From Flavobacteriales bacterium (lineage in GTDB: Bacteria; Bacteroidota; Bacteroidia; Flavobacteriales_C; GCA-002722245), in contig JAHEZM010000021.1 of the NCBI GenBank assembly GCA_023251075.1, forward strand, positions 1 to 57,331: DNA of 57,331 nt, given 5' to 3'. The notes beneath the pieces were generated by a model. The model had not been told where the DNA came from. It saw only the letters and a program-made list of their open reading frames with translations, and made no database searches. The translations under genes and the position numbers were made by a program. Every line of letters begins with the position of its first letter. Within the stretch, counting starts at the first letter, position 1. This document shows positions 39,098 to 52,687 of this stretch, one piece after another.

Positions 39098-39937
39098 ATG
39101 ATCAAAGTGATAAGTATAATTACCGCATTATTCCTGGGATTCAGCTCATGCTCCACCTTAGAAGCCGATCAACCAACGGTAATTAAGATAAATGCTATCG
39201 ACTTAAAAACCAACTACAATTTAGAAGGATCTAGCAGCCATAAAATTAGTGATGCCTGGATTTACATTGATGATCAGCTACAAGGTGCATTTGAGCTGCC
39301 TTGCGCAATTCCTTTTTCTCAAAATGGAAATGTAAAAATAACAGTGGTACCAGGAATTAAATCATCGGGACAAACCGCCATTCGAGAAAAATACCCCTAC
39401 TACAAATGGTGCGATTCATTAGTAAATATGAGCGGAAGCACTATCACCTTATACCCTACTACTCAATACATTGATTCTACTTCCTTCTTGTATAAAGATG
39501 ATTTTGAAAGCAATGCGATAGTATTTACCAAAGACAATAATTCCGACACCTCCATGTATATAGTAAGCGGAGGGGCGAACATTTTTGAAGGAAATAACAT
39601 TGCTGAAATATGCGTAAACAATAATAATCCTTACGCTCTGGTGAAATCGATGTTGAATTTATCTACTCCTTCCTCTTCCAAAAAAACTTACTTAGAAATG
39701 GACTATGCCAATGATGCTCCCTTGATTGTAGGCATAAAAAGCGGAGGAAATTTTGTGCCTATTATTATTTTAAATTCTACTGCCTTAGCATGGAATAAGA
39801 TATATATTGATTTGAGCCAAACTCTCGCCAACAACAATTCTCAAAGTAAATTTGAAATTTACTTTGAAATTCAGCAAATTAGCGGAGAAGAAAACAGGAC
39901 ACGTTTTGATAATTTGAAGATCGTTACCAGGAAATGA
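39098..39937 (+). CDS. Lipoprotein of unknown function, coupled to a sugar transferase
   Basis: 279 aa from ATG 39098. I choose this start because the lipoprotein signal peptide begins there (IKVISIITALFLGFSSC, lipid Cys at about 18); the frame is open to 39071 but the extra nine residues add a second hydrophobic stretch. Beta-rich, with ISDAWIYIDDQLQGAFELP like a PEGA/carboxypeptidase-type sandwich near residues 45-85, and a C-terminal half (about 135-279) resembling a jelly-roll carbohydrate-binding module (DFESNAIVF, NRTRFDNLKIVTR). It overlaps the next gene by 4 bp (ATGA). Function unknown; context suggests surface polysaccharide. Confidence 0.75.
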   Translation: MIKVISIITALFLGFSSCSTLEADQPTVIKINAIDLKTNYNLEGSSSHKISDAWIYIDDQLQGAFELPCAIPFSQNGNVKITVVPGIKSSGQTAIREKYPYYKWCDSLVNMSGSTITLYPTTQYIDSTSFLYKDDFESNAIVFTKDNNSDTSMYIVSGGANIFEGNNIAEICVNNNNPYALVKSMLNLSTPSSSKKTYLEMDYANDAPLIVGIKSGGNFVPIIILNSTALAWNKIYIDLSQTLANNNSQSKFEIYFEIQQISGEENRTRFDNLKIVTRK

Positions 39938-41349
39938 ACAGAGTTAAGCAGTCGTTAAAGTATATTGTAGTGGATTGGTCGGTGGCTGCTTTAGCGTGGG
40001 CAACGTTCTTTGTTTACAGAAAAAGCAGAATCGATAGGAATTACTCTGATTTATTAGATATTATTCATGATCCCAAGCTACACTTAGGCATTCTTGTAAT
40101 TCCGTTTTTCTGGTTTTGTTTGTATTTATTACAAGGACAATACAGCAATGTTTTTAGAAAATCGCGATTAAAAGAAACTGTTCAAACCTTATATGCTGCA
40201 GCTTTTGGAACTATCATTATTTTCTTCACCTTATTAATTAACGATTATAATCCCTCCTACTCTACTTATTACAAATCTATTTCGGCGTTATTTCTTATTC
40301 ATTTTTCGTTAACTGCCATTTGTAGATTTATTATTTCTTCTCAAACTGCTCATAAAATCCACGATAGAGTTTACGGATACAATACTATCTTGATTGGTAG
40401 TGGAAATAAAGCACTTCAAATCTTTTTAGAATTGGAGGGAATGAAAAAATCGATGGGTAATAAATTCGTTGGTTATGCTGGTGTAAATGGAAAAGATGAT
40501 GCTTCTGTTTTATCGAAATACTTACCCTACTTAGGGCACATCGAGAATTTAAGAACTTACATAGAAGAAAAACAAGTAGAAGAAGTAATCATAGCCATTG
40601 AAGAAAAAGAACAAGAAAAAATACGATCGGTAATAGCGAAACTGGAAGGAAGAAATGTGATCATTAAAACCATTCCGGAGATGGAAGATATTTTGGCGGG
40701 ATCGGTAAAAATGAATTCCATTTTAGGTGCCGCCTTAATTGAAATATCAGCCGACCCAATGCCTGAATGGCAAAAAAGCTTCAAAAGAGTATTCGATATT
40801 TTTTTCTCGCTATTTGCTTTAATTCTAGGATCTCCAATTTATACTGCCCTCGCTATAGCCGTAAGAACCAGTTCTAAAGGCCCCATATTTTTTACTCAGG
40901 AAAGAATAGGAATTCACGGTGAACCATTCAATATTATTAAGTTCAGAACAATGTGTATTGATGCAGAAAAAACTGGTCCGGCATTAAGTAAAGACGATGA
41001 TCCTCGTATTACCAAAGTGGGTAAATTTTTACGCAAAAGTCGTTTAGATGAATTACCACAGTTTTGGAATGTATTAAAAGGAGAAATGAGTGTGGTGGGT
41101 CCCCGACCAGAGCGCCAATTCTTCATTAAACAAATTGTGGAGAGAGCTCCGCAGTATTACTATTTACAAAAAGTAAAACCAGGAGTTACTTCATGGGGAC
41201 AAGTAAAATACGGCTATGCCGAAAATGTAGATCAAATGATTCAGCGCTTGAAATTCGATTTGATTTATATGGAAAATAGATCTCTACTGGTGGATTTCAA
41301 AATCATTATCCACACCATCTTAATTGTGTTTCAGGGAAGAGGGAAATAA
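39934..41349 (+). CDS. Polyprenyl-phosphate sugar phosphotransferase (WbaP/WcaJ type)
   Basis: Initiating enzyme that moves a sugar 1-phosphate onto undecaprenyl phosphate. 471 aa: N-terminal membrane helices (about residues 10-135), CoA-binding/Rossmann-like domain (NTILIGSGNKALQIFLE), a further membrane segment (FDIFFSLFALILGSP) and the C-terminal catalytic bacterial sugar transferase domain with FTQERIGIHGEPFNIIKFRT, KVGKFLRKSRLDELPQF and MSVVGPRPERQFF. The polysaccharide operon at the left of the window shows no such enzyme in view, so this gene could serve it. Confidence 0.94.
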   Translation: MNRVKQSLKYIVVDWSVAALAWATFFVYRKSRIDRNYSDLLDIIHDPKLHLGILVIPFFWFCLYLLQGQYSNVFRKSRLKETVQTLYAAAFGTIIIFFTLLINDYNPSYSTYYKSISALFLIHFSLTAICRFIISSQTAHKIHDRVYGYNTILIGSGNKALQIFLELEGMKKSMGNKFVGYAGVNGKDDASVLSKYLPYLGHIENLRTYIEEKQVEEVIIAIEEKEQEKIRSVIAKLEGRNVIIKTIPEMEDILAGSVKMNSILGAALIEISADPMPEWQKSFKRVFDIFFSLFALILGSPIYTALAIAVRTSSKGPIFFTQERIGIHGEPFNIIKFRTMCIDAEKTGPALSKDDDPRITKVGKFLRKSRLDELPQFWNVLKGEMSVVGPRPERQFFIKQIVERAPQYYYLQKVKPGVTSWGQVKYGYAENVDQMIQRLKFDLIYMENRSLLVDFKIIIHTILIVFQGRGK

Positions 41350-41356
41350 ATTCGAA

Positions 41357-41860
41357 TTACTTCGCTCTCAACGTTTCAGCAAAAGTTAAATTATTCAACA
41401 TTCCATGAATTGTTTTGGCAATTCTATTGGCTTTCGTGGGAGAAGTTTTAGCGCTTTCAATCCATTTAGAATAATAATTCTGATGTGATTTAGGCATGGC
41501 ATAGAAAGCTTTTGCTGCAAAAGGTTCTTCCTCTAAACAAACTACTAAATCAACATCTAATTGATATTCACTTTTATCTCTTTCAACTTTCAGGTGAATC
41601 GTATTTCCTTCTTTTTTACCAATAGCTTTTCTAATATCCGCTTTCAATGGTAATATAAATTCCCCCTCTCCCATAGGAAGTAAAGCAAGAGCTGAAAATT
41701 CAATTCCATCAATAGTTCCTTTTATCCGAAAGCTTTTTTTATTACCTGGAAAAAGTATTTGGGCAAACTCAGCAGGAAACACAATATAAGTCCAGCCCGT
41801 CTTCTCTCCCATTTTTTTAAACTTTTCAATCAGCGCCGAAAATTCAACATTTTTTTTCAT
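41357..41860 (-). CDS. YdeI/OmpD-associated family protein (DUF1905 domain)
   Basis: 167-aa cytoplasmic protein. The N-terminal half fits DUF1905 (GWTYIVFPAEFAQILF, GTIDGIEFSALALLPMGEGE, LPLKADIRKAIGKKEGNTIH). The C-terminal part fits the bacteriocin-protection/OmdA-like segment (HQNYYSKWIESAKTSPTKAN). Biochemical role unknown; the family was named from a weak link to bacteriocin resistance. Convergent with the sugar transferase gene (7 bp apart). A small-RNA candidate is divergent from it. Confidence 0.85.
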   Translation of the reverse strand: MKKNVEFSALIEKFKKMGEKTGWTYIVFPAEFAQILFPGNKKSFRIKGTIDGIEFSALALLPMGEGEFILPLKADIRKAIGKKEGNTIHLKVERDKSEYQLDVDLVVCLEEEPFAAKAFYAMPKSHQNYYSKWIESAKTSPTKANRIAKTIHGMLNNLTFAETLRAK

Positions 41861-41952
41861 GACTAAGGTTACCTTTTAAAAAATTTGCCATTAAGATATT
41901 GTAACAGATTTAAAAAACAGTATTGATACATTATGAAAATAATACTTAAAGA

Positions 41953-42074
41953 AATTTTTGATGGATGCAGGTTTTTCGCCATGTGGATAAGAATGGTGAT
42001 TTGCAGAGAGTTTTACTCGTAAAGCTCTCCTCTCTTACAGCGTTCCAATTCCCCATTGGAACGCTGTTTTTTTT
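41953..42074 (+). ncRNA. Candidate small structured RNA with intrinsic terminator
   Basis: A -7-like box AATTTTTG (41953-41960, one mismatch) is followed by three predicted stems: 5' stem CGCCAT/ATGGTG with flanking GCA/TGC pairing (about 41967-42005), a compact hairpin GAGAG-TTTTACTCGTAAAG-CTCTC (42006-42029), and a perfect 13-bp terminator stem ACAGCGTTCCAAT/ATTGGAACGCTGT (42037-42067) with eight T residues. The transcript would be about 105-110 nt. The T-run overlaps the stop codon of the convergent lipoprotein gene. It does not resemble SRP RNA, tmRNA, RNase P RNA or a riboswitch I know. Confidence 0.5.
42037..42074 (+). terminator. Strong plus-strand terminator
   Basis: Perfect 13-bp stem (42037-42049 with 42055-42067), 5-base loop TCCCC and an 8-base T-run. 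There is no plus-strand protein gene upstream within 700 bp (that one ends at 41349, with an opposite-strand gene between), so it should end a separate short transcript. Confidence 0.85.
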
Positions 42075-42846
42075 AATTCACTCCCACAATACCATAGGTG
42101 GTTTTTCCATTCTTCACTACTTTCCTAAACATCATTTGCAGTTTAATTTTTCTTCCATCTGATGCAGAAGTAATTTTAAACGTTGCCACTTTTTCATCCA
42201 TCAAAATATCGAAACCCGTAAATTCAATATCTCCAATATCATTAAAATCTAAACACGCTTTTGTTTTTCCTTCTCCATCTTTTGAAATAAGTACACCACA
42301 AAATTGTTCATTCATACATTTTGCGGTATCATTTTCCAGCGCTTCAATACATCTGCGTTGGTAATAAATAGAATCGTAGAAATAAGTTAATTCATAAATA
42401 TTTCCATTTTGCACATAGGCAGCAAATGTTTTAAAGAAATTATTGGTATCAATTTTCGAAAAAGGAAGTACCGTGGTAGGAATGTCATCTACTGATTTTT
42501 TAATGTCTTTTTTCGACTTCAACACATACTTCGAATACAAAATAGTTTTGTACATCAAGGTATCTCCATTCAACACAAAAGGTTGATTTTTTTTAAAATA
42601 GTGACCAGTAAATTCAATAGCATAACCTTCTTTCCTGAGAGAATCAGGCATTTTTAAACTATCGCTTTCCGGAAGAATTTCAATTTGCTGTCCATTCTCT
42701 TCATTCACCCACTGCAAATTTCCATCGCCATCCTTGTATCCCGTAATAGTTACAACCGTTTCCTTTTCTTCGAGATTTTCATTGATTTCAGAACAGCTCA
42801 TTAAACCAATAGACAACAATGCTAAAATGAATTTCACCTTATTCAT
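42073..42846 (-). CDS. Lipoprotein of unknown function
   Basis: 257 aa with a lipoprotein signal (NKVKFILALLSIGLMSC, lipid Cys at about 18). No domain recognised. The mature part contains TVVTITGYKDGDGNLQWVNE and a central charged region, then CIEALENDTAKCMNEQFCG and a C-terminal segment MMFRKVVKNGKTTYGIVGVN, with a few cysteines. The ATG overlaps the truA stop by 4 bp, so it is expressed with truA. Its stop codon overlaps the T-run of a convergent small-RNA terminator. Confidence 0.7.
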   Translation of the reverse strand: MNKVKFILALLSIGLMSCSEINENLEEKETVVTITGYKDGDGNLQWVNEENGQQIEILPESDSLKMPDSLRKEGYAIEFTGHYFKKNQPFVLNGDTLMYKTILYSKYVLKSKKDIKKSVDDIPTTVLPFSKIDTNNFFKTFAAYVQNGNIYELTYFYDSIYYQRRCIEALENDTAKCMNEQFCGVLISKDGEGKTKACLDFNDIGDIEFTGFDILMDEKVATFKITSASDGRKIKLQMMFRKVVKNGKTTYGIVGVN

Positions 42847-49091: not shown

Positions 49092-49105
49092 AACTATTAT
49101 AAAAC

Positions 49106-49135
49106 AAAAAAGCCGAGCGGGCGCCCGACTTTTTT
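49106..49135. terminator. Second terminator-like hairpin, AAAAAAG/CTTTTTT with GC-rich tip
   Basis: AAAAAAG (49106-49112) pairs with CTTTTTT (49129-49135); inside are CG/CG and GC/GC pairs with two mismatches and a GGGC tip. It can act on either strand. It stands alone between the previous terminator and the tRNA promoter, so a minus-strand or short plus-strand RNA may end here. Confidence 0.5.
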
Positions 49136-49152
49136 CTAACCTAACTAAACTA

Positions 49153-49170
49153 ATCAGTTTGAAAACTGAT
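49153..49170. repeat. Perfect 8-bp inverted repeat
   Basis: ATCAGTTT, a 2-base centre, then AAACTGAT. It follows the second terminator-like hairpin after the A/C-rich stretch CTAACCTAACTAAAC. The role is unknown. Confidence 0.4.
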
Positions 49171-49256
49171 CGCTGCAAATATATATCGTTTATCGTCCTT
49201 TGTCAATTATTCATCGAGAAAAATTTACAATTTCTCTAAAACATCAAGCCAGTTGC

Positions 49257-52626: not shown

Positions 52627-52637
52627 ACCAAAACAAA

Positions 52638-52667
52638 AAGGCTGTTCGTCAATTGACGAACAGCCTT
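52638..52667. terminator. Bidirectional terminator between rocD and the OmpA-like gene
   Basis: AAGGCTGTTCGTC (52638-52650) pairs exactly with GACGAACAGCCTT (52655-52667), loop AATT, with A-run before and T-run after, so it serves both convergent genes. Confidence 0.9.
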
Positions 52668-52687
52668 TTGTTTTTAAACTACACAAC

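Follow-up and report, generated by a model that had tools for sequence, protein, structure and literature searches.

Does the 212-bp gap at positions 41861-42072 of the window (the whole 57,331-nt stretch of Flavobacteriales DNA analyzed here) harbor a small RNA gene of its own, or does the intrinsic terminator within it mark the end of some other transcript? An earlier sequence-only reading had proposed an independent trans-acting or antisense RNA of roughly 105 nt, preceded by a near-consensus promoter element and folding into two stems ahead of a terminator. Here we report an analysis of the structure, promoter, genomic context and distribution of this candidate. Our preferred reading, to which we assign a probability of slightly under one half (0.48), is a structured RNA of about 110 nt, specific to this lineage and either independent or processed, that ends at the terminator. 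Overall, it is plausible that the locus represents either such a small RNA, lineage-specific and of candidate rank only, or the end of a readthrough transcript.

Flanking genes and predicted RNA structure of the gap

The gap, the extent of which was confirmed as previously delimited, is flanked by two minus-strand genes, one encoding a DUF1905/OmdA protein and the other a lipoprotein-like protein, with truA, also on the minus strand, ahead of the latter gene (Table 1). Because both flanking genes are located on the minus strand, the gap may lie inside a minus-strand transcript or form part of its 3' UTR, and such a transcript could span the gap since a terminator scan detected no minus-strand terminator-like site within 41861-42072. 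The nearest upstream gene on the plus strand, which had been described as ending about 600 bp earlier, indeed has its stop at 41349, and the scan detected no plus-strand terminator-like site from this stop to 42037. The convergent stops of the sugar-transferase and DUF1905 genes (41349-41357) are separated by 8 bp with no intrinsic terminator between them, thus making antisense readthrough past this point likely. The only open frame, 41965-42162, was considered as a coding relic and rejected, since it matched no Pfam family and gave no relative with an E value under 0.49, and a search for a phage, plasmid or viral origin of the gap yielded only short AT-rich matches.

Table 1. Coordinates of the genes, promoter element and RNA features considered in this work (numbering of the window)
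Feature	Position	Strand	Description
Sugar-transferase gene (Bac_transf)	39934-41349	+	Nearest upstream plus-strand gene
DUF1905/OmdA (YdeI-like) gene	41357-41860	-	Would lie under an antisense readthrough RNA
Proposed -7 box	41953-41960	+	AATTTTTG, one mismatch to TAnnTTTG
Hairpin 1	41966-42005	+	13 pairs, 10-nt loop GUGGAUAAGA, three G-U pairs
Hairpin 2	42006-42029	+	10 pairs, tetraloop CUCG, one G-U pair
Unpaired linker preceding terminator	42030-42036	+	Possible pairing segment
Intrinsic terminator	42037-42074	+	Perfect 13-bp stem ACAGCGTTCCAAT/ATTGGAACGCTGT, 5-nt loop, eight T
Lipoprotein-like gene	42073-42846	-	No Pfam family; stop codon overlaps T-run
Small RNA gene (positive control)	49101-49215	-	Exact promoter, hairpin, linker, terminator

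The perfect stem and the eight-T run claimed for the plus strand are both present, with the first T paired in the stem, and the T-run shares two bases with the stop codon of the lipoprotein-like gene (42073-42075), as had also been observed. Folded alone, the terminator deviates strongly from shuffled sequences (z = -9.7). Its score of 19 in a strict scan of the window is far above chance expectation, as the scores in ten Markov-simulated windows used as background peak at 10-16. Other high-scoring terminator-like sites in the window are located nearly all after a gene or the tRNA. At 52637-52668, two convergent genes are separated by a bidirectional terminator with a perfect 14-bp stem, which provides a good yardstick for real terminators in this DNA. 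Since the intrinsic terminator in the gap is oriented on the plus strand, a plus-strand transcript of some kind most likely ends at about 42074.

Two consecutive stems ahead of the terminator were recovered where the sequence-only reading had placed them. Together with the terminator they fold with a free energy of -42.4 kcal/mol (z = -6.4; 0 of 200 shuffles as stable), most of this stability coming from the terminator. Without the terminator, hairpins 1 and 2 reach -22.9 kcal/mol on the plus strand (z about -2.7 to -3.0) and -13.5 kcal/mol on the minus strand (z = -1.0); 23 of 4582 tiles covering both strands of the whole window equal the plus-strand fold in stability and in distance from their shuffles. 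Of the 36 pairs on the plus strand, 4 are G-U and would become A-C on the minus strand. About 1.3% of simulated gaps contain a stem comparable to hairpin 2. These observations are moderate evidence that the two hairpins belong to a structured plus-strand RNA; the statistics are somewhat flattered, as the structure was chosen for its good looks. As for the features that characterize intergenic small RNAs of Bacteroidota, the locus possesses a 3' intrinsic terminator at 42037-42074 and a stable structure (z = -6.4 for the whole, about -3 without the terminator).

Promoter search, relatives and a positive control

A further such feature, an own promoter composed of TTG, a spacer of about 20 nt and TAnnTTTG, was not found. 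The -7 box proposed earlier, AATTTTTG, departs from TAnnTTTG at the first T and is one of three sites in the gap that miss this motif by a single base on the plus strand, none of which has a TTG 17-23 nt ahead of it. The promoter claim is at chance level because 96% of simulated gaps contain at least one one-mismatch box and no spaced TTG is present; the own promoter of an independent transcript of about 105 nt is thereby left unsupported.

Rfam searches at gathering and permissive thresholds gave nothing credible for the candidate, the best sub-threshold match being VrrA (14.5 bits versus a cut-off of 50), and the earlier statement that it resembles no known RNA family is upheld. For 6S-Flavo and other Rfam families, no covariance-model match exceeded the cut-off in several searches, one of them run without a positive control. 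By blastn against 60 relatives, the candidate matched itself only. A covariance model built from its single sequence and structure, which in combination with the prefilter would miss strongly diverged copies, recovered no homologue beyond the candidate itself in 10 genomes of the family and order, and no homologue, only weak matches, in 395 genomes of the class. The best of the weak matches (38.8 bits, in G191) lacks hairpin 2 and comprises two hairpins directly downstream of, and on the same strand as, a ribBA-like gene; it is a chance likeness of terminators, namely a tandem terminator behind that gene.

Each of the four genus relatives (G001-G004) has the DUF1905 gene, the sugar-transferase gene and the lipoprotein-truA pair, but at separate locations, and no orthologous gap was found beside any of them. 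The gap sequence is unrelated to the sequences of these relatives, in which the sugar-transferase gene is followed by different genes and lacks any such element. When GTDB contigs were scanned with an alignment of the lipoprotein, only the same four relatives were returned. Since the flanking genes are apart and the gap is missing in all four, these comparisons point to the gap as a junction particular to this lineage.

As a positive control, the same approach was applied to another orphan terminator, 49107-49134 on the minus strand. The associated RNA of about 70 nt, at 49101-49172, has an exact promoter (TTG-N20-TATATTTG) and consists of a hairpin followed by single-stranded UUAGUUUAGUUAGGUUAG and the terminator. 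It occurs in two copies in its own genome, with the second at G000:C20:48554-48605, and as an 84% identical copy in G001; strong matches (70-84 bits) were obtained in all five species of the genus. TAnnTTTG is found upstream of the strong copies, and 5 of the 12 pairs of the terminator stem show compensatory changes. With no Rfam match at the gathering threshold, this RNA appears to represent a multicopy family of small RNAs that is as yet undescribed and whose layout resembles that of FopS. The family gives a picture of a better-supported small RNA in this genome, and none of these supports (exact promoter, copies, compensatory changes) was found for the candidate in the gap. A related group of three loci in G002 and G003 (L072, L073 and L077) carries ACAATATTCTTATCCAACATCCAGAATTTTGTTTAGTTAGGCG with small variants and a G+C-rich terminator, within regions running from about 80 bases before the match (1501-1551) to its end; TATATTTG is located upstream in two of the three. 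These loci probably form a further small RNA family that shares the GUUUAGUUAGG motif.

Origin of the transcript predicted to end in the gap

According to the preferred reading, a plus-strand RNA of about 110 nt would end at the terminator. It would either have started within the gap, from a promoter that is weak or atypical, or have been cut from a longer 3' UTR. Such an RNA would be complementary over its full length to the sequence that separates the minus-strand lipoprotein and DUF1905 genes, which makes cis-antisense action on the lipoprotein-DUF1905 transcript the simplest and most likely function, if it has any; trans pairing, through either the hairpin 1 loop or the unpaired linker at 42030-42036, would be a possible alternative. 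We infer the transcription, start site, size and every function of this RNA. The small RNA is supported by a terminator beyond chance, of a kind that in the window mostly follows genes. Counting against it are the lack of an above-chance promoter and of homologues in the genus, in the family and order and in 395 class genomes, as well as the recovery of the control RNA in all five genus species by the same approach. The lack of homologues is nevertheless compatible with a small RNA, since many small RNAs of B. thetaiotaomicron are strain-specific (27 of 49 high-confidence intergenic ones, PMC7366714). A more elaborate version, in which a species-specific antisense RNA over the lipoprotein/DUF1905 join was born at a recent rearrangement junction and sets the expression of both genes, seems unlikely.

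The terminator may instead stop the plus-strand sugar-transferase operon, whose long 3' UTR would run antisense past the DUF1905 gene, with no separate small RNA gene; we regard this as a serious, if doubtful, possibility that accounts for the terminator nearly as well and without an orphan gene. The unterminated convergent stops and the terminator-free stretch from 41349 to 42037 would permit such a transcript, and antisense RNAs in F. psychrophilum arise mostly from imperfect termination and non-canonical initiation (PMC9723704). Published transcript maps of Bacteroidota contain RNAs of both kinds, independent small RNAs (PMC7366714) as well as antisense RNAs produced where termination is imperfect (PMC9723704). 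However, readthrough would have to extend about 690 nt past the stop, it leaves unexplained why two hairpins with G-U pairs on the plus strand should stand right ahead of the terminator, and the different surroundings of the sugar-transferase gene in the genus relatives also argue against it. That the gap is a mere rearrangement junction, with the terminator and stems left over from a lost gene or the 3' end of another transcript, would fit the separation of the neighbouring genes in 4 of 4 relatives and the unrelated gap sequence, but the 13-bp stem is perfect, the fold is intact and the only open frame has no relative, which renders such a relic quite improbable. Finally, both neighbours are minus-strand genes and a few bases separate the lipoprotein stop codon from the start of the 13-bp stem, as might be expected if the stems belonged to the lipoprotein mRNA, at its 3' end, or to a DUF1905 leader; yet the minus strand has no T-run here, in contrast to the other minus-strand terminators of the window, and hairpins 1 and 2 are weak on it, so that this assignment is highly improbable. 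If transcribed, the lineage-specific small RNA would extend by one the small or antisense RNAs of a Bacteroidota lineage that has been little studied; the candidate alone settles no open question.

Comparison with known small RNAs

The 6S layout is a single long hairpin with a central bubble. Like the candidate, 6S-Flavo (RF01685) is found in Bacteroidota and has a similar length (108 positions), whereas the candidate forms three hairpins in series, which 6S-Flavo does not, and gave no Rfam match to it. The intergenic small RNAs of B. thetaiotaomicron (e.g., GibS; PMC7366714) share with the candidate a short length, an intergenic location, an intrinsic terminator and a Bacteroidota host; no sequence relation between them was found, and their starts are mapped, most with a sigma-ABfr promoter, whereas the candidate is known from its sequence alone. 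The independent transcripts of F. psychrophilum (Rfp RNAs, e.g., Rfp18; PMC9723704) were observed as transcripts, whereas the candidate is a prediction likened to them by description; like it, they are structured, short and located outside genes, and many of them are antisense, as the candidate would be.
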